NCBI RefSeq assembly: GCF_016756745.1
Contig: NZ_JAESIH010000019.1
Location: forward strand, 1-33,567
Reading direction: 5' to 3'
Source: Aminivibrio sp.
GTDB taxonomy: Bacteria; Synergistota; Synergistia; Synergistales; Aminobacteriaceae
DNA length: 33,567 nucleotides
The notes beneath the pieces were generated by a model. That model was not told where the DNA came from, ran no database searches, and worked only from the letters and a program-made list of their open reading frames with translations. Positions 3,381-16,981 of this stretch are shown in pieces; position 1 is the first letter of the stretch, and each line of letters begins with the position of its first letter. The position numbers and the translations under genes are program-made.

Positions 3381-3542
3381 TCCGTTCGGGGCAAGGCCGC
3401 AGGTATTTCCGACAGACCTGTACATAAAGTTGAAGATCCGTTTCAATTGCGCAGAGGAGAGGACCAAGGGTTTCCCATGCCGAGCTCCCTCCAGGGAAGT
3501 TCGGCCATTATTGCAGCTTGTATTTGAAGGAGGTTGGACACC

Positions 3543-4853
3543 GTGGAGTTATCGGCTAAAAAAATCATCGCGGGGCTCACGATTGCTGCGGCTGCCGCCG
3601 CCGGCCTGTATTTATTCATCCTGTCAGGAGAGGAAAAGGGAAATACAGTTCCCCCGCCTGCTGCGGCACGGCGGGTGAAGTACATGACCATTGCGCAAAA
3701 AGAATCAGGAGGTGAACGGATCTTTCCGGGAAGGATCGTGGCATCGCAGAAAGTGAATCTCTCCTTCCGCGTCTCCGGCCAGATAATAGACCTTCCGTCC
3801 GTCAAAGGCGTGTTCGTTGAAAAGGGGACACTCCTCGCAAAGCTCGACCCGAGGGATTTCGTGGTCCAGCTTGCAAATGCGAAAAGCGACCTGGGGAATG
3901 CCGACGCACAGATCTCGGCGATGAAAGCCGGCGCAAGAAAAGAGGAGATCGCCATGTTCTCCGCAAAGGTTGAGTCCGCCCGGGCCCAAATGAACGATGC
4001 CATGACCACCATGGAAAGGGTGGAAAAACTGTACAAGGCGGGGGGGTTCTCAAGGGCGGAATACGATAAGGCCATAACGTCCTACCGGGTTGCACGGTCA
4101 GCATACCAGAGCGCTGCCCAAGAGCAGACAAAAGCTCGTGCCGGAGCAAGGCCCGAGGATATCTCCGCCATGGAATTCACGATCAGCGGAATCGAGGGAA
4201 GTGTGAAGACAGCCCAAAACGCCCTCAAAGACACTGAACTCCGGGCACCCTTCAGCGGAGTGATCATCGACAGATACGTGGACAACAATCAGAGCGTGCA
4301 GAAAGACCAGGCCATTGTGAGTCTGCAGGACATCCAGTCCCTCGAGGTATCGATCTCAGTCTCGGAACGGATCGTGGCCCTCGCAAACAGGGAGAACCTC
4401 AGCTCCATCTCGGCCAGGTTCAGAGCACTTCCAGAAAAGCGCTTTCCGCTGATTTACAAGGAGGCATCGGCATCGGCGGATCCCCAGACACAGACATACC
4501 CGATAACGTTCTCGCTGGAAAAACCGGAAGAGATCAACGTTCTGCCCGGAATGACAGTGGACGTGATCGCGACGGGGCTGGACGTCTCGATTGCTTCAGC
4601 TCTTGAAATACCTTCGGAAGCGGTTTTTGCGGAAGAGAGCGAAAATCACTTCGTGTGGAAGATCATCGGAGCGGACGAACTCAGGGTAACCGCCGTTCCG
4701 GTGAAGATCCTGGGCTTCAGGGGAAGCATGGCTGAACTTGACGGCGCACTGGCGCCCGGTGACCGGATCGTCACGGCCGGAGCCTCCTTCCTTCTCGAAG
4801 ATGACCCTGTAACCCTCTATGAAGGCCCCGGCGACAGCGGGGAAAAACGATGA
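3543..4853 (+). CDS. RND efflux periplasmic adaptor (HlyD/MFP family)
   Basis: Membrane-fusion subunit that bridges an RND inner-membrane pump to an outer-membrane channel. The 436-aa protein starts with a short cytoplasmic segment and a hydrophobic anchor (about residues 8-27). It then has a barrel-sandwich lipoyl-like half (PGRIVASQKVNLSFRVSGQI), a long helical hairpin rich in Ala, Lys and Glu, and the second lipoyl half (LRAPFSGVIIDRYVDNNQSV), followed by beta-barrel and membrane-proximal domains. No lipobox was seen, so anchoring is by the N-terminal helix or signal peptide. The GTG at 3543 is preferred: AAGGAGG ends 9 nt upstream, whereas the in-frame TTG at 3534 abuts that site. It overlaps the permease gene by 4 nt (ATGA). 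No outer-membrane factor or regulator gene is adjacent. The substrate cannot be told from sequence. Confidence 0.9.
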   Translation: MELSAKKIIAGLTIAAAAAAGLYLFILSGEEKGNTVPPPAAARRVKYMTIAQKESGGERIFPGRIVASQKVNLSFRVSGQIIDLPSVKGVFVEKGTLLAKLDPRDFVVQLANAKSDLGNADAQISAMKAGARKEEIAMFSAKVESARAQMNDAMTTMERVEKLYKAGGFSRAEYDKAITSYRVARSAYQSAAQEQTKARAGARPEDISAMEFTISGIEGSVKTAQNALKDTELRAPFSGVIIDRYVDNNQSVQKDQAIVSLQDIQSLEVSISVSERIVALANRENLSSISARFRALPEKRFPLIYKEASASADPQTQTYPITFSLEKPEEINVLPGMTVDVIATGLDVSIASALEIPSEAVFAEESENHFVWKIIGADELRVTAVPVKILGFRGSMAELDGALAPGDRIVTAGASFLLEDDPVTLYEGPGDSGEKR

Positions 4854-7800
4854 ATCTTGCCGATTTTTCCATTAAGAAAAGCACCATCACGTGGTTTCTC
4901 TCTTTTCTTGTCGTCATAGGTGGATTCTGGGCCTACGGCAGGCTTGGAAAGCTGGAAGATCCGGCATTCACCATAAAGACCGCGGCGATCAGCACTCCCT
5001 ACCCCGGGGCATCGCCCCGGGAAGTGGAAGAGGAAGTAACCTCCCTCATCGAGTCTGCTGCCCAGAAGCTGGGACAGACCGACAAGGTGCGGTCTCTTTC
5101 AAAGGAAGGTCTGTCCATAGTCTACGTGGATATAAAGGATACTTATACGGCAAGGGATCTCCCCCAGATATGGGACGAACTCAGGCGCAAAATTACCGAC
5201 GTGCAGTCCCGTCTCCCCCCGGGGGCAGGGCCATCGATGGTGAACGACGACTACGGAGACGTTTTCGGGGTCTACTTCGCTCTGACCGGAGACGGGTACA
5301 CGTTCCGAGAACTAGAGGACCACGCAGACTTTCTCCGCAGGGAGCTTCTGCTCGTTCCCGGCGTGTCCAACGTACAGACAGCAGGAATTCAGCAGGAGAA
5401 CATTTATCTCGAAGTGGACCGAACCAGGATGGATTCCTTCGGCATATCCATGGACGAGATATTCAGGCTCCTGTCCGCCCAGAACATCGTGGCCGGTGCA
5501 GGCTCGGCCCGGGTCGGCGGCGAATATCTGCGCATAGCTCCTACAGGATACTTCGCGTCCCTGAACGTGCTGCGGAATCTCCTTCTGCGCGGAGGGTCGG
5601 GACAGACCCTTCGCCTCGGGGACATAGCAGCCATTTACAGGGGGTACAGTGATCCCCCAAGGAACGCGATGCGCTTCAACGGGAAACCTGCCCTCGGAAT
5701 CGGCGTATCGAATGTGGAAGGCGGCAACGTCATAACCATAGGCGAGGCCGTGAAAAATCGCCTGCGGGAACTTCTGCCCCAAACCCCCGTGGGAATGGAG
5801 ATGCACCTCATCTACTACCAGGCTGACACCGTGAGAGCTTCAATTAACAATTTCGTCGTCAACCTTCTCGAAGCCCTGGCCATCGTGTTTGCCATTCTCC
5901 TTATCTTCATGGGACTGAGGAGCGGCCTTCTCATCGGCGTCATGCTCCTTCTCACCATCCTTGCCACATTCATCGCCATGAAACTCACCGACATCGACCT
6001 TCACAGCATCTCCCTGGGAGCGCTCATCATAGCCCTCGGCATGCTGGTCGACAATGCAATCGTCGTCGCTGACGGCATGATTGTTGGGATGCAGCAGGGG
6101 AAAGACGCTTCCGCCGCAGCCAGGGAAGTGGTGGGACAGACGCAGATACCCCTTCTCGGAGCCACCGTCATCGCCGTCATCGCATTCGCACCCATAGGGT
6201 TATCCCCTGATAACACGGGAGAGTTCTGCAGGAGCCTTTTCCAGGTAGTGGGCATATCTCTGATGCTCAGCTGGATCCTGGCGGTCACCGTAACCCCCGT
6301 TGCAGGAATCGCCATGCTGAAAGTGCCGAAACAGCAGAAAAACAGCGATCCTTACGATACCCCAATATACCGGGCATACAGGAGTTTTCTCCGGCTCTGT
6401 CTCACACGGAGGAAGATCGTCCTTCTCTCGGTGCTTGCCCTGCTTCTCGCGTCCATTGCGGCATTCAGCCTGGTTGACAAGTCGTTTTTTCCCAATTCCA
6501 CAAGCCCCATGTTCACCGTCGACTTCTGGAGAACAAGAGGATCAGGAGTAGAAGCCACCCTTGAAGATGCCGAACGCATGCAGACCTTCCTCGCAGAGCA
6601 GCCGGAAACAAAAATCGTCACCTCATACGCGGGCGAAGGGGCGCTTCGCTTTATCCTCACCTACACGCCGGGAGATTCCGCTTCCAACTACGGTCATCTC
6701 ATCGTGGAGGCTAAGGACTCGGAGGGAGCCGAAGCACTGAAGAAAAAACTCGGGGAGTTCGTCCTTGCTGAAATGCCCCATCTCGACCCTAGAATCCGCT
6801 CCTTCAGCAAAGGAACCGGAGGCGGCGCAAAGGTACAGGTACGTTTCCTCGGGAAAGACCCTCTGATTCTCCGGAAACTCCGGGACAAAACCGTCGCAAT
6901 CATGAAATCGGACCCCGACAGCATCAACATCCGAGACAACTGGGGAGAGAGGGTGAAGGTCATTCGTCCCGTTCTTGACGACAACGTCCAGGAACTCGGG
7001 CTGACCAGGAGAGACGTGGCCTATGCGCTGAAAACATCGTATTCGGGGCTTCAGGCAGGCCTTTTCCGTGAGGGCGAAAAACTCGTCCCCATAGTCGCCC
7101 GCCTTCCCCTCGAGGAATGGGGAAACATCGAGTCCATAGAAGAAACCCAGATATGGAGTTCCCTTTTTCGGAGATACATTACCCTTTCCCAGGTAGTATC
7201 GTCAGTACAGGTCGGAACTGAAGATCCGGTAATTTACCGCATAAACCGCATGCCGGCAATAACCGTCGAGGCGGACAGCGGTTCCGGGTCGGCGGTAGCC
7301 CTACTCGATCGACTGAGGGATGAAATCGAGGCCCTTCCCCTGCCCCGGGGGACAACCATGGAGTGGGGCGGAGAATATGAAAATTCCCAAAAAGCCCAGG
7401 GAGGCCTCATGGGGATGATCCCCGTGGCCTTCATGGTCATCGTGGTCATCCTGGTAGCCCTGTTCAACGGCCTTCGCCAGCCGCTGATCATACTTCTCTG
7501 CCTCCCCCTTTCCATTATAGGGCTCTCCGTGGGGCTTCTCCTCATGAGAAAATCCTTCGATTTCCTCGCACTCCTGGGCCTCCTGAGCCTCGCCGGAATG
7601 CTCATAAAAAACGCCATTGTACTCATCGACCAGATAGACCTGGAAATACGGCGGGGGAAAACTCCTTTCGACGCTATCCTGGATTCCGGCATAAGCAGGT
7701 GCAGACCCGTAATGATGGCTGCCTTCACCACCGTCCTCGGGATGATCCCCCTCTACTTCGACGTCCTCTTCTCCGCCATGGCGGTGACCATAATGTTCGG

Positions 7801-7870
7801 CCTCACTTTTGGGACTGTACTCACCCTGGTCGTGGTGCCTGTGCTGTACGCGGAAGCACTGAAAGCTTAA
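4850..7870 (+). CDS. RND efflux transporter permease (AcrB/HAE-like)
   Basis: Proton-driven inner-membrane exporter of 1006 aa, close to the usual 1000-1050. The layout is typical: TM1 at about residues 12-30, a large periplasmic porter loop, a bundle of TM helices (about 335-500), a second porter loop, and the final TM bundle (about 860-1000). The proton-relay residues of AcrB (D407, D408, K940) correspond to D401, N402 and K920, in LVDNAIVVAD and MLIKNAIVLID; the second Asp is thus Asn. The start ATG lies inside the stop of the adaptor gene, so translation is probably coupled. It resembles the smaller, less characterised AcrB-like exporters more than classic multidrug pumps. Metal or drug specificity is unknown. 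A terminator follows 15 nt after the stop. Confidence 0.93.
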   Translation: MNLADFSIKKSTITWFLSFLVVIGGFWAYGRLGKLEDPAFTIKTAAISTPYPGASPREVEEEVTSLIESAAQKLGQTDKVRSLSKEGLSIVYVDIKDTYTARDLPQIWDELRRKITDVQSRLPPGAGPSMVNDDYGDVFGVYFALTGDGYTFRELEDHADFLRRELLLVPGVSNVQTAGIQQENIYLEVDRTRMDSFGISMDEIFRLLSAQNIVAGAGSARVGGEYLRIAPTGYFASLNVLRNLLLRGGSGQTLRLGDIAAIYRGYSDPPRNAMRFNGKPALGIGVSNVEGGNVITIGEAVKNRLRELLPQTPVGMEMHLIYYQADTVRASINNFVVNLLEALAIVFAILLIFMGLRSGLLIGVMLLLTILATFIAMKLTDIDLHSISLGALIIALGMLVDNAIVVADGMIVGMQQGKDASAAAREVVGQTQIPLLGATVIAVIAFAPIGLSPDNTGEFCRSLFQVVGISLMLSWILAVTVTPVAGIAMLKVPKQQKNSDPYDTPIYRAYRSFLRLCLTRRKIVLLSVLALLLASIAAFSLVDKSFFPNSTSPMFTVDFWRTRGSGVEATLEDAERMQTFLAEQPETKIVTSYAGEGALRFILTYTPGDSASNYGHLIVEAKDSEGAEALKKKLGEFVLAEMPHLDPRIRSFSKGTGGGAKVQVRFLGKDPLILRKLRDKTVAIMKSDPDSINIRDNWGERVKVIRPVLDDNVQELGLTRRDVAYALKTSYSGLQAGLFREGEKLVPIVARLPLEEWGNIESIEETQIWSSLFRRYITLSQVVSSVQVGTEDPVIYRINRMPAITVEADSGSGSAVALLDRLRDEIEALPLPRGTTMEWGGEYENSQKAQGGLMGMIPVAFMVIVVILVALFNGLRQPLIILLCLPLSIIGLSVGLLLMRKSFDFLALLGLLSLAGMLIKNAIVLIDQIDLEIRRGKTPFDAILDSGISRCRPVMMAAFTTVLGMIPLYFDVLFSAMAVTIMFGLTFGTVLTLVVVPVLYAEALKA

Positions 7871-8099: not shown

Positions 8100-9500
8100 T
8101 TACACCCCGCCCCGGATGCCGTCGAGGATGATCTTCTGCTCCGCCGAGGCGACAATGCGCCTGGTGTAATCCAGGGCATCGGGGTTGACGCTGATGCTGT
8201 CCATGCCCATGGCGACTAGTTTTTCCGCGAAATCGGGAAAGACGGACGGTCCTTCGCCGCAGATGGAGCACGGTATGCCCGCTTTCCTGGCCGCCCGGAC
8301 GGTCATGGATATGGCCTCCAGAACGGAGGGGTGCCGCTCATCGAAGTACCCCATAGCGCCGAGCTTGCCGGAATCCCGATCCACGCCGAGGATGAGCTGG
8401 GTGAGGTCGTTGCTCCCGATGGTGAATCCGTCGCAGATGCCGGCGAACTGGTCGGCCTGCAGTACGACCGAAGGTACTTCCACCATGAGCCAGACCTTGA
8501 AGGACGGGCCGGAGACGAGCCCCTCAGACTCGAGGATAGCCCTGACCTGCTCCATTTCCCGAAGGGTCCGCACGAAGGGAATGATGACGGAGAGATTGGT
8601 GAGGCCGAAATGGTCCCGAACTTTCTTCACGGCATGACATTCGAGGCGGAAGCCCTGTTCATAATCCGGGGAGACATACCGGGACGCTCCCCTCCAGCCG
8701 AGCATGGGGTTGGATTCAAGGGGCTCGATGTCCTGTCCGCCCCGGAGTTTGCGGAAGTCGTTGGTCCGGAAGTCGCTGAAGCGCATAAGCACCGGCCTGG
8801 GGGAGAACCCTGATGCGACGGCGGCAATACCTTCGGCGAGTTTGTCCACGAAGAGGGTCTCCTGTTTCGTCCGGACGAGGTAGATGGGGTGGATGCCGAT
8901 GTCGCCGGAAAAGATGAACTCTGTCCTGAGGAGGCCTACACCGTCGGCGGGCAGGGCGGAGCACCGCTCCACCGATGCGGGGCCTTCAAGATTGATGAGT
9001 ATTTTGGTGGCCGTGACACTTTGGGGCGCCGGGGAGGCTGTCGGCTGCGACAGTACGTCCGGTCGGGGGGCAGCAGCCGGAAGGGCTTCAACGGCAGCGG
9101 CCGGAGACGGGGTTGCGCGCTCCTCACCCTGGAAGACCACTCCCCGGGTAGCGTCCACTACTACGTTCTGCCCTTCGGCGAGGATTTCGGTGGCGTTCCG
9201 GGCGCCTACGATGCAGGGTATTCCGAGCTCCCGGGAGAGTATGGCGGCGTGGCACGTGCGGCCGCCTTCGTCGGTGACGACGGCGCCGGCTTTTCGGAGC
9301 GCGGGGATCATGTCCGGCGTGGTCATGGCGGTTACGAGGATGTCGCCTTCGGTGATCTTCACCGCGTCGGCTGATCCGGGGACAAGGACGACCTTTCCGG
9401 CAGCGAGGCCGGGAGAGGCGGCGAGACCCCTGCAGAGAAGCTTCCGTTCGGGAGTTTTCGGAGCAGGGGACGAGTTCTCGTGCTTCCCGTTCTTTGTCAT
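8100..9500 (-). CDS. PEP-synthase-like protein lacking the ATP-grasp domain
   Basis: A 466-aa protein matching only the second half of pyruvate,water dikinase (PpsA, about 790 aa). Residues about 24-125 form the swivelling phosphohistidine domain with GGRTCHAAILSRELGIPCIVG, giving catalytic His84 and the candidate regulatory Thr82. Residues about 126-163 are an Ala/Pro-rich linker. The rest is the PEP/pyruvate TIM barrel with LLRTEF, ESNPMLGWRG, GSNDLTQL and CSICGEGPS (acid/base Cys414). The N-terminal ATP-binding domain is absent, and the gene has its own start: ATG at 9500 with AAAGGA 9 nt upstream. This is preferred over the ATG at 9518. It lies 66 nt after ppdK, across a strong hairpin. 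It might be one subunit of a split PEP synthase, take phosphate from another ATP-grasp protein, or have a new role. The motifs match PEP synthase better than PTS enzyme I. Confidence 0.85.
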   Translation of the reverse strand: MTKNGKHENSSPAPKTPERKLLCRGLAASPGLAAGKVVLVPGSADAVKITEGDILVTAMTTPDMIPALRKAGAVVTDEGGRTCHAAILSRELGIPCIVGARNATEILAEGQNVVVDATRGVVFQGEERATPSPAAAVEALPAAAPRPDVLSQPTASPAPQSVTATKILINLEGPASVERCSALPADGVGLLRTEFIFSGDIGIHPIYLVRTKQETLFVDKLAEGIAAVASGFSPRPVLMRFSDFRTNDFRKLRGGQDIEPLESNPMLGWRGASRYVSPDYEQGFRLECHAVKKVRDHFGLTNLSVIIPFVRTLREMEQVRAILESEGLVSGPSFKVWLMVEVPSVVLQADQFAGICDGFTIGSNDLTQLILGVDRDSGKLGAMGYFDERHPSVLEAISMTVRAARKAGIPCSICGEGPSVFPDFAEKLVAMGMDSISVNPDALDYTRRIVASAEQKIILDGIRGGV

Positions 9501-9518
9501 GATCTCAGGTCCTTTCAT

Positions 9519-9559
9519 AAAGATCCGCGCCGGGGGGAAGCCCGGCGCGGCGGATCTTT
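9519..9559 (-). other. Strong intercistronic hairpin after ppdK
   Basis: On the minus strand AAAGATCCGC and GCCGG pair with CCGGC and GCGGATCTTT, giving 10 bp plus 5 bp separated by a 3-nt bulge. It fills the gap between ppdK and the PEP-synthase-like gene. In the direction of these genes only three T follow before ATG, so it looks more like an mRNA-stabilising or attenuating structure than a full terminator. Confidence 0.6.
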
Positions 9560-9566
9560 TTCAGTT

Positions 9567-12215
9567 CTAGCTGATTTTGCCCATAGCCGCGTGGGCGGCT
9601 GAGATCCGGGCCACAGGGACCCTGAAGGGCGAGCAGCTCACGTAGTTGAGGCCGACGGCATGGCAGAAGGCGATGCTGGAGGGGTTCCCGCCGTGCTCCC
9701 CGCAGATGCCGACGGAAAGTTTGGGATTGACCTTCCGGCCCTTTTCCACGGCGATCTTCATGAGGGCGCCCACGCCGTCACGGTCGAGCTCGTGGAAGGG
9801 GTTGACGGGCAGAATGCCCTTGTCCTCGTAGTGGCCGAGGAACTTGCCTTCGGCGTCGTCTCGGGAGTAGCCGAAGGTGGTCTGGGTGAGGTCGTTGGTG
9901 CCGAAGCTGAAGAATTCGGCGCACTCGGCGATCTGGTCGGCCACGAAGGCGGCGCGGGGAACCTCTATCATGGTGCCGACGAGGTAGCTGAACTTCTTGC
10001 CGGACTTTTCCATGTAGTCCTTCGCGATTTCGTCGATCTGCTTCCTGAAGAACTCCATTTCCGTTTTCAAGCCCACGAGGGGAATCATGATCTCGGGATG
10101 GATTTCGATACCCTCGTCCACGAGCCGCAGAACGGCCTCGAAGATGGCGCTGACCTGCATGGCGGAAATTTCGGGATACACGATGCCGAGACGGCAGCCC
10201 CGGAAGCCCAGCATGGGGTTGGATTCCTTGAGGGATTCCACCTTGGCCATGACATTACGGACCCTGTCGGCCTCGGGAGAGTGCTCTTTTCCGGCGGCGA
10301 CGAGTTCGGCCAGTTCTTCCTCGAGATCCCTCTCCTTTGGCATGAACTCGTGGAGGGGCGGGTCGAGGAGGCGGATGATGACGGGAAGGCCCTGCATCTC
10401 CTTCAGGATGCCGTAAAAGTCTTCCTTCTGCATGACCTTGAGTTCGTCGAGGGCTGCGACACGCTCCTCATAGCTGTCGGCCACCACGAGGCGCTGCATG
10501 ACGGGAAGGCGGTCGGCGGCCATGAACATGTGCTCGGTACGGCAAAGACCGATACCCTTGGCGCCGAAGGACCGGGCGCGCCGGGCATCCTCGGGGGTGT
10601 CGCCGTTGGCCCATACCTGGAGGCGGGCAAATTCATCGGACCAGGAGAGTATGGTCTTGAAGTCGTCGCTGAACGAGGCCTCCATGAGGGGCGCACCGCC
10701 GAGAAGAACCCGGCCGGTGCTGCCGTCCACGGTGATGGTGTCTCCCTTGCGGACAACCTTGTCTCCCTTGGAGATGGTCTCTTTGTTCAGGTCGATGAGG
10801 ATGTCCTCGCATCCGCTGACGCATGGCTTGCCGAGTCCGCGGGCGACCACGGCGGCGTGGCTGGTCATGCCTCCGCGGCTGGTGACGATTGCTTCGGCGG
10901 CGAAAAGGCCGTGAATGTCGTCGGGGCAAGTCTCGGGCCTGGCGAGGACGACTTTCTTGCCCGACTTGGCCAGCTCGACGGCGTCGTCGGCGTCGAAGCA
11001 GACGATGCCCACACCGGCGCCGGGAGAAGCGGGAAGTCCTTTGGCGAGCACTTCGTTCTCCGCCTTGGGGTCGACCTGCCTGTGCAGGAGCATTTCAACC
11101 TGCTCGGGGGAGACTCTGCCGACGGCGGTCTTCTTGTCTATGAGCCCTTCGTTCACCATGTCCACGGCGATCTTCACGGCCGCTCCGGCAGAGCGCTTGC
11201 CGGTCCGGGTCTGGAGGATGTAGAGCTTGCTGCGCTCGATGGTGAACTCGATGTCCTGCATGTCCTTGTAGGCCTTCTCAAGGTTGGTGGTAATCTCGAA
11301 AAGCTCGTTGTAGACAGCGGGCATGACATCCTTGAGCCGGGCGATGGGAAGGGGCGTCCTGATTCCGGCCACCACGTCCTCGCCCTGGGCGTTCACGAGG
11401 AACTCGCCGTACAGCTCCTTCGTTCCGTCGGAGGGGTTCCGGGTGAAGCACACGCCTGTGCCGCAGTCGTCGCCGAGATTGCCGAAGACCATGGAAACGA
11501 TGTTGACCGCCGTGCCGAGAGAATCGGGAATTTTGTGGAGCTTCCGGTAGGTGATGGCTCTGGGGTTGTTCCAGCTTCTGAAGACCGCCACGATGGCGTT
11601 GCGGAGCTGCTGCCAGGGGTCGGAGGGGAAATCGAACCCGGCGGACTTTTTGAAGATCTCCTTGAACTTCGCGACTATCTCCACGAGGCTCTTTTCGGGG
11701 ATCTCGTTGTCGAAGGTCACGCCGAGGGTTTTCTTTTCGTGCTCCAGCACTTCTTCGAAGGCATCCCCGGTGACTCCGTGGACCACGTTGCCGTACATCT
11801 GGATGAAGCGGCGGTAGCTGTCAAAGGCAAAGCGCCTGTCACCGGAGACCCTTGCGAGGGATTCCACGGACTCGTCGTTGAGACCCAGGTTGAGCACCGT
11901 GTCCATCATGCCGGGCATGGAGATGGGGGCGCCGGAACGGACCGAAACAAGCAGGGGGTTTTCCCCCGTGCCGAAGGTCTTGCCCGTTTCTTTCTCGAGG
12001 GCGTTCATGGCGGTGGTGACATCACCCCAGATGCGGTCAAGGAACTTCTCGTCCTTGCCGTATTCCAGACAGGCCTGGGTGGTCAGAATGAACCCCTGGG
12101 GAACGGGCAGGCCGTACTGAACCATCTGGGCCAGGTTTGCTCCCTTGCCTCCCAGGAGATTTTTCATCTCCGCGTTGCCTTCTTTGAAACTGTACACGTA
12201 CTTCTCTGCGTTCAT
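9567..12215 (-). CDS. ppdK: Pyruvate, phosphate dikinase (PPDK)
   Basis: Interconverts ATP + pyruvate + Pi and AMP + PEP + PPi in the cytoplasm. In fermenters it serves glycolysis or gluconeogenesis at the PEP-pyruvate node. At 882 aa it is the normal length. It has the N-terminal ATP-grasp region (LLGGKGANLAQM, VSVRSGAPISMPGMMDTV), the swivelling domain with GGMTSHAAVVARGLGKPCVSG (phosphohistidine His453, regulatory Thr451) and the C-terminal barrel (RTEHMF, ESNPMLGFRG, GTNDLTQTTFG, GICGEHGG with Cys838). All expected catalytic residues are present. The ATG at 12215 is 2 nt after the stop of the upstream regulator gene; its GGAGGT site lies inside that gene. The two DUF299 regulators just upstream are expected to act on Thr451. 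The call is very secure. Confidence 0.98.
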   Translation of the reverse strand: MNAEKYVYSFKEGNAEMKNLLGGKGANLAQMVQYGLPVPQGFILTTQACLEYGKDEKFLDRIWGDVTTAMNALEKETGKTFGTGENPLLVSVRSGAPISMPGMMDTVLNLGLNDESVESLARVSGDRRFAFDSYRRFIQMYGNVVHGVTGDAFEEVLEHEKKTLGVTFDNEIPEKSLVEIVAKFKEIFKKSAGFDFPSDPWQQLRNAIVAVFRSWNNPRAITYRKLHKIPDSLGTAVNIVSMVFGNLGDDCGTGVCFTRNPSDGTKELYGEFLVNAQGEDVVAGIRTPLPIARLKDVMPAVYNELFEITTNLEKAYKDMQDIEFTIERSKLYILQTRTGKRSAGAAVKIAVDMVNEGLIDKKTAVGRVSPEQVEMLLHRQVDPKAENEVLAKGLPASPGAGVGIVCFDADDAVELAKSGKKVVLARPETCPDDIHGLFAAEAIVTSRGGMTSHAAVVARGLGKPCVSGCEDILIDLNKETISKGDKVVRKGDTITVDGSTGRVLLGGAPLMEASFSDDFKTILSWSDEFARLQVWANGDTPEDARRARSFGAKGIGLCRTEHMFMAADRLPVMQRLVVADSYEERVAALDELKVMQKEDFYGILKEMQGLPVIIRLLDPPLHEFMPKERDLEEELAELVAAGKEHSPEADRVRNVMAKVESLKESNPMLGFRGCRLGIVYPEISAMQVSAIFEAVLRLVDEGIEIHPEIMIPLVGLKTEMEFFRKQIDEIAKDYMEKSGKKFSYLVGTMIEVPRAAFVADQIAECAEFFSFGTNDLTQTTFGYSRDDAEGKFLGHYEDKGILPVNPFHELDRDGVGALMKIAVEKGRKVNPKLSVGICGEHGGNPSSIAFCHAVGLNYVSCSPFRVPVARISAAHAAMGKIS

Positions 12216-12217
12216 CT

Positions 12218-13102
12218 CTATTTCGCACCTCCATGGAATGAATGTCTCTCCGTCGCCCCGGCGAGCAGGGCAAGTATTTCATGGGCCGTTTCCTCAATGG
12301 CCCGTTTCGTGACATCGAAAACCACAATGCCCAGATATTTCATTATACCCGAAGCATAATCGATTTCCCTCATAATTTCTTCAGATCGTACATACAAACT
12401 CTCTTCCGGGGGCAGTCCCATCATGGACATGCGTCTGGTGCGGATTCCCTCCAGGGATACGGGCGACCTGGTCAGGCCCACGATCCGCGTCCGAGGAATG
12501 CGGAAGAGCTGCGGAGGAGGCTCGATGCCCGGAACGAGGGGCACGTTGGCAGCCATGATCCCCCTGTGGGCAAGGTACATGCAGAGGGGGGATTTCCCGG
12601 TCCTCGATATGCCCACGATGACCACGTCCGCCTCCTTGAGGATGGAGGGGTTCCCTCCGTCGTCGGCGGCGATGGTGTATTCCACGGCCCGTACCCTCCG
12701 GAAATATTCCCTGTCCATGGGGTGAAGGAGGGTTCGGTCTTCCTTCGCATCCCGGCCTGACGCCCGCTCAAGCCCCGTAAGCATGGGGGAGAATGCATCG
12801 TACTCGTCGATGCCCCGCGCGAGGCAGGTTTCCCTCACGAGCCGCCGGTATCCGCCGGAAAGAAAGCAGTGAAGCACCACAGCGCCTGCCCGGTAAGCTT
12901 CGTCCAGAGCCTCGCGGATTTTGTCCTCTCCCGCCAGGGAGCCGAACCGGGTTATTTCGATGCCCGTCTTGCCGAAACGGCGGGTAATCCACGACGCACA
13001 GGCCTCGGCAACCTCGGAGAGGCAGTCCGAGAGAACGAAAAGATCCACGTTTTTCCCGTCGGGGAAAGAATATCCGTTCCGTCGTTCACAGAAGGCGACC
13101 AC
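12218..13102 (-). CDS. Second PPDK/PEP-synthase regulatory protein (DUF299), diverged
   Basis: A 294-aa member of the bifunctional kinase/Pi-dependent phosphorylase family that inactivates and reactivates PPDK or PEP synthase by Thr phosphorylation next to the catalytic His. The P-loop-like GISRTGKS (164-171), the following PLCMYLAHRG and ANVPLVPGIEPP, and the C-terminal DVTKRAIEETA are conserved. The N-terminal family motif, SDSTGETAE in the neighbour, reads SDCLSEVAE here (25-33), losing the usual Thr/Gly residues. It starts at GTG (13102), 13 nt after the stop of the first regulator, with AAGGGA 6 nt upstream. It lies 2 nt before ppdK, so translation with PPDK is likely coupled. It may target only one of the two enzymes, or have only one of the two activities. 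Family membership is secure; the target is inferred. Confidence 0.88.
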   Translation of the reverse strand: MVAFCERRNGYSFPDGKNVDLFVLSDCLSEVAEACASWITRRFGKTGIEITRFGSLAGEDKIREALDEAYRAGAVVLHCFLSGGYRRLVRETCLARGIDEYDAFSPMLTGLERASGRDAKEDRTLLHPMDREYFRRVRAVEYTIAADDGGNPSILKEADVVIVGISRTGKSPLCMYLAHRGIMAANVPLVPGIEPPPQLFRIPRTRIVGLTRSPVSLEGIRTRRMSMMGLPPEESLYVRSEEIMREIDYASGIMKYLGIVVFDVTKRAIEETAHEILALLAGATERHSFHGGAK

Positions 13103-13115
13103 CAGCCTTCCCTTC

Positions 13116-13973
13116 TCAGCGGGCCCTAAGGAAGTCCAGGATCTCCTGGGCGGTCTCTTCCACCGCCCTATCGGTCACATCGTAAATGCGGGCGCCCAGC
13201 GACTTGAGATAATCGGTAGCGGCCAGCAGCTCCCGCTCCACCCGCTCTCTGGTGGCATAGGCGGAAGCCGACGGTTCAAGGCCGAGGAGCCGGAGCCTCT
13301 CCTGCCGTATCTGGACGAGCCTTTCAGCGGAGATGATGAGGCCGACGATCTTTGACGAGGGTATCTTTTTGATGATCTCCGGAGGATCCACCTCGGGGAT
13401 AAGGGGAATGTTGGCGGCCTTGAAGCCCTTGTTGGCGATGTACATGGAGAGGGGAGTCTTTCCCGTCCTTGAGACGCCGAGGATGACCAGGTCCGCCTCG
13501 GGCAGGGACTCGGTGCCCCGCCCGTCGTCGCACTGGATGGCGAATTCCACGGCCTTTATCTTCTGGAAGTAGTCTTCGTCCAGCTTCCTGAGCAGCCCAG
13601 GCGCCTGGAGGGGTTCTCTTCCGAGCCGCATCTCCAGGGCGTCCACCATGGGGCCGAGGAGATCGACAAAGGGGATTCCCGCTGCGGCTGTTTTTTCGGC
13701 GAAGACGGAGCGGGTCTGCCGGTCCACCAGGGTACAGACCACGATGGAAGGGACGGCGGCGGCCCGGGCCACGACTTCGTCTATCTTTCCGGGTCCCTCC
13801 ACGTACCGGTACCGGACGATCTTCGAAAAATCGGTGTCGAACTGGCTGATGGCTGCGAGGGCCACATGTTCCGCCGTCTCGCCGGTGGAATCGGAAACGA
13901 TAAAGAGGGTCAGGGTTTCCAGGGCGTCCACTCTCCTTTGGTTCGGCAATGGTTCACTTTGCTGAAAGGGCAT
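13116..13973 (-). CDS. PPDK/PEP-synthase regulatory protein (DUF299), canonical
   Basis: Bifunctional serine/threonine kinase and Pi-dependent phosphorylase controlling PPDK or PEP synthase. The 285-aa protein has the canonical N-terminal VSDSTGETAE (26-35), the P-loop-like GVSRTGKT (166-173) followed by PLSMYIANKGFKAANIPLIP, and a C-terminal DVTDRAVEETAQEIL. Conservation is higher than in the neighbouring copy. The ATG at 13973 lies within the 3' arm of a strong hairpin and has only a weak GGCGGG ahead of it. An alternative GTG fifteen codons in follows AAAGGAG too closely to be ideal, so the start is uncertain. The gene sits 42 nt after glyS. The arrangement glyQ-glyS-regulator-ppdK recurs in other anaerobes, as far as I recall, which supports the role. 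Confidence 0.93.
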   Translation of the reverse strand: MPFQQSEPLPNQRRVDALETLTLFIVSDSTGETAEHVALAAISQFDTDFSKIVRYRYVEGPGKIDEVVARAAAVPSIVVCTLVDRQTRSVFAEKTAAAGIPFVDLLGPMVDALEMRLGREPLQAPGLLRKLDEDYFQKIKAVEFAIQCDDGRGTESLPEADLVILGVSRTGKTPLSMYIANKGFKAANIPLIPEVDPPEIIKKIPSSKIVGLIISAERLVQIRQERLRLLGLEPSASAYATRERVERELLAATDYLKSLGARIYDVTDRAVEETAQEILDFLRAR

Positions 13974-14015: not shown

Positions 14016-16082
14016 TCAGGCTCCCTTGAGCACGCTCACGTCCCCCACCTTGCGGAAGAGGGCGCTGCACATGGAAAGAAGGGCTATCCGGTTTGATTTT
14101 ATTCTTTCATCGGGATCCATGACAAGGACATCGTCGAAGAAAGCGGTGACGAAGGGGGAAAGTTCCGCCAGATACCCCGCGAGGCCGTTCCAGTCCTGTT
14201 TTTCCATGGCTCCATCCACGAGGGGAAGAATTCTCTGAATCTCGCCGTGGAGGGCGCTTTCCGCATCCTTCACGAAAAGGGCCGGGTCCACTGTTCCCGC
14301 CTCTTCCCCGCTCTTGGAGATGATGTTCCGCACCCGCACCGCCGAGTTGATCAGGTTAGAGAACCATTCCACCCCCTGGAGTTTCGAGAAGACATCCAGG
14401 AACCGGAGAACCTGGAGAGGTCTGTGTCCTGTGACGGATATGGCGAGGGCGGCAAGTTCGTGGCCGAAGCCCTTTTCCTTGACCTGCATGAGCAGGCGCT
14501 GGGAAAGGAAGGCGAGGACCTTCTCACCTGTCTCAGGGGAGGCGGACAGGAGCTTCATGGACTGGCCCGCCAGTCTGGAGACGTCCACGTCGAGCCCGAG
14601 GCCCCAGATGATCTCGTTGATGCACCGGGCGGCCCGGCGGAGGCCGTAGGGGTCCTGGGAGCCGCTGGGCTCGAGGCCCACCTTGTGGCAGCTCACGATG
14701 ACGTGGGTCCGCTCGGCGAGGCCGAGGACGGCTCCCGGCACGTCGCCGGGAAGCTCGTTGCCCGCCGCTTTGGGAAGGTACTGGTCGTAGAGGGCCCGGG
14801 CCACTCGTTCGGGCTCGCCGTTGCGGAGAGCGTACTCCCTCCCCATGACTCCCTGGAGTTCGGGGAATTCGTAGACCATGTTGGTGACAAGGTCGGCCTT
14901 GGCGAGGAATGCCGCCCGATCCACCACAGGGACGAGGTCGCTCATGCCCATTTCCCCGCAGAGCCAGAGGGCCAGCTCCCTGGTGGTCATGACCTTGTCG
15001 TGGAGGGAGCCGAGCTTCTCCTGGTAGACAATGTTCTTCAGTCGTTCCACGTTGGCGGCGAGAGGGTTCTTCAGGTCTTCGCCCCAGAAGAAGGCCGCGT
15101 CCTCGAGGCGGGCCTTGAGGACCCGCTCGTTGCCCTCCCGGACCACCTCCATGTTGGAAGCCAGGTTGTTGCTTACGCCCACGAAGTAGGGAAGAAGTTT
15201 GCCGTTCTTTCCCCGCACAGAAAAGTACTTCTGGTTCTTTTTCATGGAGGTGGTGAGCACTTCCTCGGGCATCTCCAGGTACTTTCTGCTGAAGGAGCCG
15301 AAGAAGGGCACGGGATACTCCACCAGATAGAGGTTCTCGTTGATGACCTCGGGGTCGAGCTCCACGGAGCCGTCCAGGTCTTTTTCAAGGGAGGCGATGC
15401 CGGCGAGCATCTTCTGGCGGCGCTTGTCCTGGTCGAGGATGACATAGTTGTCGTAGAGCTTGTCCATGAAGTCCGCCGCGTCGGTGATGACGATTTTCCG
15501 GGCGCCCATGAAGCGGTGCCCCACCGTCGAATTTCCGCTCCTGATTCCGCCGTACTCGAAGGGGATGGCCTTCCTGTCCGCCATGGCGAGGATCCACCTG
15601 ATGGGCCTGGCGAAGCGGACCGTGGGGTCGTCCCAGTACATGTTCTTGGGGAAGACGAGTTTCCTGATGAGACCCGGAAGAAGCTCGGGAAGAATGTCAA
15701 GGGTCAGGCCCCCGGGCTCGGAGACTTCGGCGCAGGTGTAGCGCACGCCGTCCACTTCCACGGGGGTGAGCTGCTCGATGGAGACGCCCCTGCTCTTGGC
15801 GAAGCCATGGGCCGCCCTGGTGGGGTTGCCGTTGACGTCGAAGGCGGCGTTCCATGCCGGCCCCTTGAAAGTGCTGACCATGTCGCGCTGCCGTTCGTCG
15901 GCGTCCCGCACGAGGAGGGCGATCCGGCGGGGCGTGGCGAAGGCGGAAAGGCTCTTGAAGCCTATCCTTGCGGCTGAAAGGTCGTCCCTGGCGGTCTTCT
16001 CGAGGAATGCGAGCGTGTCCGGCAGGAAACGGGATGGAATTTCTTCGGTTCCGATTTCGAGAAGGATGTTTTTCAGCACCAT
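14016..16082 (-). CDS. glyS: Glycyl-tRNA synthetase beta subunit
   Basis: The tRNA-recognising large subunit of the heterotetrameric (alpha2-beta2) bacterial glycyl-tRNA synthetase. The protein is 688 aa, the normal length. It starts with the typical LLEIGTEEIPSRFLP, carries the family blocks FPKNMYWDD, RFARPIRWI and HRFMG, and ends in an anticodon-binding-like helical region with FFDDVLVMDPDERIKSNRIALL. The ATG at 16082 has AGGAGG 8 nt upstream; the longer in-frame start at 16172 lies inside glyQ and is rejected. The gap to glyQ is 5 nt, so the two subunits are co-translated. Confidence 0.97.
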   Translation of the reverse strand: MVLKNILLEIGTEEIPSRFLPDTLAFLEKTARDDLSAARIGFKSLSAFATPRRIALLVRDADERQRDMVSTFKGPAWNAAFDVNGNPTRAAHGFAKSRGVSIEQLTPVEVDGVRYTCAEVSEPGGLTLDILPELLPGLIRKLVFPKNMYWDDPTVRFARPIRWILAMADRKAIPFEYGGIRSGNSTVGHRFMGARKIVITDAADFMDKLYDNYVILDQDKRRQKMLAGIASLEKDLDGSVELDPEVINENLYLVEYPVPFFGSFSRKYLEMPEEVLTTSMKKNQKYFSVRGKNGKLLPYFVGVSNNLASNMEVVREGNERVLKARLEDAAFFWGEDLKNPLAANVERLKNIVYQEKLGSLHDKVMTTRELALWLCGEMGMSDLVPVVDRAAFLAKADLVTNMVYEFPELQGVMGREYALRNGEPERVARALYDQYLPKAAGNELPGDVPGAVLGLAERTHVIVSCHKVGLEPSGSQDPYGLRRAARCINEIIWGLGLDVDVSRLAGQSMKLLSASPETGEKVLAFLSQRLLMQVKEKGFGHELAALAISVTGHRPLQVLRFLDVFSKLQGVEWFSNLINSAVRVRNIISKSGEEAGTVDPALFVKDAESALHGEIQRILPLVDGAMEKQDWNGLAGYLAELSPFVTAFFDDVLVMDPDERIKSNRIALLSMCSALFRKVGDVSVLKGA

Positions 16083-16087
16083 GACGA

Positions 16088-16981
16088 TTACCTCCTGGCC
16101 GATTCGGGGCCGAATTTCCCGCGGAAGGGATGGTTCATTGCCCGCCTCTGGGCGGCGTAGGCGGCGCAGCACTTGCCCGCAAGCATCCTGATCCTGCCGA
16201 TATACCCCGTTCGCTCGGTGACGCTGATGGCGTTCCTGGCGTCAAGAAGGTTAAAGGTGTGGGAGCATTTCAGGACGTAGTCGTAGGCGGGAAGGACGAA
16301 GCCCTTGTCCAGGACGCGCATGGCCTCGGCCTCGTACATGCCGAAAAGCTGGAAGAGCATCTTCGTGTCGGCGATCTCGAAGTTGTAGTGGGAATACTCC
16401 ACTTCCCCCTTGTGGTGGATGTCGCCGTACTTCACGTCGTCCACCCACTGGAGGTCGTAGACGTTCTCCACCTTCTGGACGAACATGGCGATGCGCTCGA
16501 TGCCGTAGGTGATCTCCGCGGGCACGAGGTCCATGTCGATGCCGCCCACCTGCTGGAAGTAAGTGAACTGGGTGACCTCCATGCCGTCGAGCCAGACCTC
16601 CCAGCCAAGCCCCCAGGCCCCCACGGTGGGGGATTCCCAGTCGTCCTCCACGAACCGGATGTCGTGGGCGGCGGGCTCGATGCCCAGGGCGGCGAGGCTC
16701 TGGAGATAGAGATCGATGATGTTGGCGGGAGCCGGCTTGATGATCACCTGGTACTGGTAGTAGTGCTGAAGGCGGTTGGGGTTCTCGCCGTACCTTCCGT
16801 CGGTGGGTCTGCGGGACGGCTCCACGTAGCCCACCCTCCACGGCTCGGGGCCGAGGACCCTGAGGCAAGTGGCCGGGTTCATGGTCCCCGCTCCGACCTC
16901 TATGTCGTAGGGCTGCTGGATGACACATCCCTGCTCCGCCCAGAACCGTTCGAGGCGAAAGATGATTTCCTGGAAATTCAC
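16088..16981 (-). CDS. glyQ: Glycyl-tRNA synthetase alpha subunit
   Basis: The catalytic class II subunit that activates glycine and works with GlyS. The protein is 297 aa, as usual. It begins [19 protein letters not shown] and has the strongly conserved [36 protein letters not shown] and [18 protein letters not shown] blocks that hold the class II motifs. The start is GTG at 16981, with AGGAGG about 9 nt upstream. A 56-nt gap with a weak hairpin separates it from recO, so it may belong to the same transcript as recO and era. Confidence 0.98.

Follow-up and report, generated by a model that had tools for sequence, protein, structure and literature searches.

Bacterial regulators of the PDRP/DUF299 family (PF03618, NF003742), such as that of Listeria monocytogenes, have two domains, carry a P-loop of the form GxSRTGK in the C-domain and lie in the neighbourhood of glyQS. 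The reported target is pyruvate phosphate dikinase (PPDK) for the Listeria protein (PMC8100219) and PpsA for E. coli PpsR, also called PSRP (PMC2817694). According to a review (PMC9138534) that summarises the crystal structure of the maize regulator, the two domains are similar in fold and have phosphate-binding loops, a single active site in the C-domain is used for both the kinase and the phosphorylase reaction, and an allosteric role is proposed for the N-domain; what this domain does in bifunctional regulators has so far only been proposed. Second regulator isoforms with altered behaviour are described in plants (maize PDRP2 and Arabidopsis RP2), and PMC6019023 describes maize PDRP2 as lacking phosphorylase activity with no catalytic residue changed. 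In the N-domain, the Listeria, E. coli and maize records read SDSTGETAE, SDGTAITAE and SDGTGWTAE, respectively, all with threonine at the seventh position; the E. coli record agrees with the form given in an earlier note on the present locus.

The window, meaning the entire 33,567-nucleotide stretch of Aminivibrio sp. DNA analysed here, carries two such genes in tandem. Behind glyS and glyQ (14016-16981), which synteny with annotated relatives identifies as the usual upstream neighbours of DUF299 genes in this phylum, lie regulator copy 1 (13116-13973, 285 aa), regulator copy 2 (12218-13102, 294 aa with a GTG start), a complete PPDK gene (9567-12215, 882 aa), a terminator-like hairpin (9525-9550) and a truncated PpsA gene (8100-9518), all on the reverse strand. 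The direct neighbour of copy 2 is therefore the full PPDK gene, with the PpsA-like gene one further on. Genes for an RND efflux adaptor and permease (3534-7870) occupy the strand opposite to this cluster. Copy 2 passed the PF03618 Kinase-PPPase profile (248.7 bits against a cut-off of 23.5, profile positions 1-256) and the DUF299 profile NF003742 (239.4 bits, cut-off 225), and copy 1 passed PF03618 (303.4 bits, cut-off 23.5), while neither reached the curated 350-bit cut-off of the PpsR equivalog NF049928 (copy 1, 148.3 bits). Copy 2 thus resembles E. coli PpsR in being a PpsA-linked DUF299 protein but differs from it in scoring only 99.5 bits with NF049928 and in having a putative target that lacks the ATP-grasp domain. 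The PPDK matched TIGR01828 (1336.8 bits, cut-off 843.45) and carries the Thr-x-His target GGMTSHAA (10851-10874, reverse strand). Since the N-terminal half of the regulator is altered and the nearby PpsA lacks its ATP-grasp half, both genes seem to have changed in concert, and our main reading, to which we assign a probability of about 0.5, is that copy 2 and the truncated PpsA would form a functional regulator/target pair that was rewired together.

The earlier note had contrasted SDSTGETAE in copy 1 with SDCLSEVAE in copy 2, and both motifs were found exactly so in their frames (copy 1 residues 27-35, 13869-13895; copy 2 residues 25-33, 13004-13030; both reverse strand). We compared the eight copy-2 proteins, from G000-G003 (g1), G034, G071 and G072 (g8) and G020 (g17), with 92 other family members that were reduced to 75 reference rows by deduplication at 95% identity; these came mostly from Synergistota, together with about 20 named records drawn from the E. 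coli chromosome and PLSDB plasmids. Before counting, we removed ten short rows, including the N-domain-less copy of G004, the shortened copy of G011, the broken copy of G016 and the edge-cut copy of G026. Serine and aspartate at motif positions 1 and 2 were invariant across the 75 reference rows, and position 7 was threonine in 74 and serine in one; position 4 was threonine in 69, leucine in two, and valine, serine, alanine or isoleucine in one each. All eight copy-2 proteins had leucine at position 4, with valine (3) or glutamic acid (5) at position 7. The family-wide SD-x-T/A-x-x-TAE pattern given in the note consequently stood for S1, D2 and T7 but not for the variable position 4; by the same counts, the motif varies freely at positions 3-6, 8 and 9, but not at S1, D2 and T7. 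The loop pattern S-D-x4-T, a conserved trait rather than a formal requirement of the family, was absent from copy 2, in which serine and aspartate are kept and the threonine is replaced in 8/8 proteins. These counts point to the loss of the seventh-position threonine as the telling change, rather than T4 to L, which is found also in single-copy homologues; because the same kind of change recurs in all eight orthologues from three genera, it appears to lie beyond chance.

Extending the comparison to all columns with at least 93% identity gave 32 conserved positions, of which the N-domain holds seven and the remainder of the protein 25. Four of the seven N-domain columns were lost in all eight copy-2 proteins, namely (in copy-1 numbering) T33 to V/E, A40 to W, Q44 to R and T81 to C/G/A, whereas only one of the 25 others was changed, a conservative replacement of T173 of the copy-1 P-loop by serine (S171 of copy 2) in all eight rows (Fisher p = 0.0044, with columns treated as independent, though they are not). 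The conservation that the note had ascribed to the C-terminal block and to the P-loop GISRTGKS (residues 164-171, 12590-12613, reverse strand) was thereby borne out at 24 of 25 columns. The new tryptophan and arginine, W38 and R42 in copy-2 numbering, lie in the segment ASWITRRF (residues 36-43, 12974-12997, reverse strand) and are fixed in 8/8 copy-2 proteins, while 11 canonical PpsA-linked rows have alanine and glutamine at these places, so the N-domain is not simply decaying. Compared with other bacterial PDRP/DUF299 proteins, copy 2 is thus distinguished by valine or glutamic acid in place of the N-loop threonine, by a new tryptophan and arginine in the following helix, and by being accompanied by a tandem paralogue. 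Judged by these residues, the N-domain of copy 2, the part for which an allosteric role has been proposed, has been remade.

In the AlphaFold model of copy 2, the motif forms the loop between the first strand (residues 18-25) and the first helix (residues 30-42), and the P-loop is placed comparably in the C-domain (strand 160-164, helix 170-178); the copy 1 model was alike, and in both models the region of the N-loop was predicted with modest confidence (block pLDDT about 55-74). Maize PDRP1 (5d0n, 5d1f) is the only solved relative, and 5d0n alone stood out in a fold search with the copy 2 model (237 residues aligned, Z 19.2, rmsd 9.6). The Foldseek TM scores to 5d0n were low (0.44/0.47), perhaps as a result of domain orientation. 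The maize protein keeps the loop threonine that copy 2 does not. When the N- and C-domain profiles were aligned with hhalign, the probability was 0.4 to 0.9% and the alignment fell off the P-loop, so we make no sequence-based claim that the N-motif is a second P-loop arising from an internal repeat; a phosphate-binding role for the N-loop would follow from the account in PMC9138534. The suggestion that copy 2 had changed its nucleotide or phosphate site can accordingly be kept in part: a loop of the phosphate-binding type is most likely altered, and specifically in this clade, but that loop belongs to the N-domain.

The note had also suggested that copy 2 lost one of the two opposing activities, and this found no support in the sequence. 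Retention of kinase with loss of phosphorylase, or the reverse, would place copy 2 beside maize PDRP2 and Arabidopsis RP2, the monofunctional isoforms that PMC6019023 describes as arising without changes to catalytic residues, and the P-loop serine fixed in 8/8 proteins could be taken in its favour. The remaining invariant C-domain columns are nevertheless all kept, and both reactions are said to share one site (PMC9138534); since the C-domain columns including the P-loop are retained, copy 2 is not obviously missing one activity. PDRP2 and RP2 further differ from copy 2 in that their target is an intact PPDK and, according to PMC6019023, no change in a catalytic residue explains their behaviour; because PDRP2 lacks an activity in this manner, the residues by themselves point to neither outcome. 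We therefore regard a monofunctional copy 2 as doubtful, though it is the best placed of the alternatives to a rewired regulator/target pair.

The tree of 82 rows placed the copy-2 proteins in one clade (100/100, stem 1.31) inside a PpsA-linked clade (100/100). Besides copy 2, this larger clade includes the second g4 and g6 copies, those regulators of family f3 that lie next to ppsA, and the regulators that occur singly in f8. Together with the neighbouring genes, this tree confirmed that SDCLSEVAE-type sequences form a clade tied to the PpsA-like gene, a check that the note had proposed. Copy 1 fell in a separate clade, alongside the glyS-linked f3 regulators and the first of the two copies in g4 and g6, and since the two copies belong to different clades, the tandem pair is old and copy 2 is no recent duplicate. 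When the halves were treed separately, the stem of copy 2 was 3.54 long in the N-half tree and 0.68 in the C-half tree; for copy 1 of the same genera, the two lengths were 0.72 and 0.28. The N half joined G009 only (86/67), and the C half joined the second copies of g4/g6 (94/94). As both halves of copy 2 group with such second copies, gene conversion between the two regulators was not supported. No single branch of the C-half tree set off the entire PpsA-linked group (2 changes, 48% of bootstrap trees), which makes the C half alone weaker evidence for the PpsA-linked placement. Genomes of g4 have the order glyQS - DUF299 - DUF299 - PPDK - full PpsA, an arrangement that appears to be ancestral.

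A PpsA match at 1e-60 was found in 32 of 185 genomes of the phylum. The truncated form was present behind PPDK in all eight copy-2 genomes; in G003, the contig ends 279 aa into the frame, which starts directly behind PPDK as it does in the other genomes. Among the remaining 24 genomes, 22 had PpsA frames of 791-839 aa and two had PpsA at contig edges, with both halves on two contig ends in G009 and a start near a contig edge in G066. The seven complete truncated copies formed one clade (100/100, stem 1.39). Since the two coincident changes each fall on one branch, the 8/8 agreement amounts to little more than one event and not to eight tests. In G004 (g1), G011 and G026 (g8), we found no PpsA match at 1e-60, copy 1 and PPDK have no copy 2 between them, and the PPDK of all three keeps GGMTSHAA. 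General reduction could explain this joint loss, since the genomes that lost both genes are small (2.2-2.4 Mb); G003, at 2.3 Mb, keeps both. G016 (g13) is likewise without copy 2 and PpsA, and its copy 1 (L105:4959-5900) contains one in-frame TAG near frame residue 233, reflecting a pseudogene or an assembly error.

This distribution bears on another possibility, in which copy 2 would have little or no catalytic activity and would pair with copy 1 in mixed dimers that adjust the control of PPDK. The two genes are adjacent, the maize protein is described as a dimer (PMC6019023, PMC9138534) and the newly fixed N-domain residues could fit such a role. We consider it unlikely, given that copy 2 belongs to the PpsA-linked clade, disappears along with PpsA in G004, G011 and G026 while PPDK stays, and has conserved catalytic-domain columns.

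A Pfam search of the truncated PpsA returned only the swivelling His domain (PF00391) and the PEP-binding domain (PF02896), and the ATP-grasp domain PF01326 was not found in it. The protein thus shares its His and PEP-binding domains with PEP synthase but fell below the PEP synthase cut-offs (TIGR01418, 521.5 against 739.75 bits; NF005057, 546.2 against 598 bits) as well as that of PTS enzyme I (TIGR01417, 149.9 against 341.7 bits). All seven complete copies keep 110 of the 139 invariant PpsA columns and retain the Thr-x-His motif GGRTCHAA (9243-9266) and the PEP site, with CGQ changed to CGE (8250-8261; both reverse strand) in 7/7. By its domain content, the truncated PpsA alone could carry out only the PEP/phospho-His half reaction. 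An Ala/Pro-rich linker between its two domains (window 9018-9128) is longer than that of E. coli PpsA; long linkers also occur in the full-length PpsA of Synergistota. Among the titles and abstract openings of the literature searched, none described a PpsA lacking its ATP-grasp domain or bacterial DUF299 genes arranged in tandem.

A separate ATP-grasp protein might phosphorylate the truncated PpsA, making a split PEP synthase regulated by copy 2. Two PPDK_N-only proteins with an unassigned C-terminal part are encoded in G000 (L111:5049-6794 and L112:5374-7212), and such proteins occur in 8/8 genomes with a truncated PpsA and are absent from G004, G011 and G026. However, relatives are found in 24 of 81 family genomes, and 16 of these belong to the 73 genomes other than the eight with a truncated PpsA; G009 and G033, whose PpsA is full-length, are among the 16. 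The PPDK_N-only proteins also gave no match to E. coli PpsA at 1e-15. They were therefore rejected as a specific partner, and we judge a split enzyme slightly less probable still than mixed dimers.

A stem-loop of ten pairs (G-U allowed) lies between the PPDK stop and the shortened PpsA in 8/8 genomes, with pair 2 changed on both sides in three genomes and pair 10 in one genome. The window hairpin folded at -29.8 kcal/mol (z -3.35), compared with unremarkable z-scores of 0.90 and 0.33 for two g4 junctions folded likewise, and no such stem was present at the four full-length PpsA junctions examined (three g4, one f8). A terminator scan called the hairpin terminator-like on both strands, in a scanned stretch with 11 such calls against 8.1 expected. 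It is not a dispersed repeat, as its exact core occurs at two places only in G000. The hairpin sits precisely at the point from which the ATP-grasp part of PpsA is missing. It is followed by a conserved GGA..GAGA..ATG, which G020 fits loosely and which marks the likely start of the shortened gene, so the first ATG at 9518 is probably unused and the truncated PpsA would probably start at the ATG at 9500, behind AAAGGACCTGAG, for a protein of 466 aa.

Over six genome pairs, dN/dS was 0.024-0.066 for copy 1 and 0.041-0.086 for PPDK, compared with 0.070-0.145 for copy 2 and 0.087-0.113 for the truncated PpsA; within copy 2, the values were 0.101-0.198 in the N half (five pairs; the sixth could not be computed) and 0.061-0.106 in the C half. 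These low values indicate that both altered genes are constrained by purifying selection. That copy 2 and the truncated PpsA are decaying remnants is thus very improbable: the fast N-domain evolution of copy 2 and the losses in some relatives would fit decay, but dN/dS is 0.07-0.15, the copy-2 frames are intact in 8/8 genomes, and the start region and hairpin are conserved.

Returning to a regulator/target pair rewired together, we propose that an ancestral cluster glyQS - DUF299 - DUF299 - PPDK - PpsA would have contained, as the forerunner of copy 2, a PpsA-type DUF299 regulator acting as an ADP-dependent Ser/Thr kinase and Pi-dependent phosphorylase. On one ancestral branch leading to three Synergistaceae genera, PpsA would have lost its ATP-grasp domain, the hairpin would have arisen before the shortened gene, and the regulator N-domain would have been remade through loss of the loop threonine and fixation of the new tryptophan and arginine, with the catalytic C-domain staying. 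Copy 2 would remain catalytically competent and still act on the threonine beside the catalytic histidine, its target presumably being the truncated PpsA. It may no longer sense the ligand of the canonical N-domain loop, in which case its switching would be set mainly by the C-domain site. More tentatively, the truncated PpsA could be a phospho-His protein charged by PEP that, lacking the ATP half reaction, serves as a PEP sensor or as a donor resembling enzyme I, with copy 2 as its dedicated, re-tuned kinase/phosphorylase; the two could make up a small hairpin-controlled PEP-sensing phospho-switch carved from a PEP synthase and its regulator.

The truncated PpsA raises the question of what purpose a PEP synthase without its ATP half would serve. 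The lineage also provides natural N-domain variants with an intact C-domain, in which the motif is replaced (copy 2) or the N-domain is missing (G004) or shortened (G011), and comparing them would bear on nucleotide sensing, target choice and the balance of the two reactions. The copy 1 of G004 (L095:1747-2235), located between glyS and PPDK, encodes 163 aa with the C-domain only (Pfam 110-256), and its ATG lies behind a purine-rich stretch. That of G011 (L106:2933-3643) has a shortened, hardly recognisable N part (Pfam 75-255) and an intact C-domain with GASRTGKTP. A C-domain without a canonical N-domain can thus persist beside PPDK.
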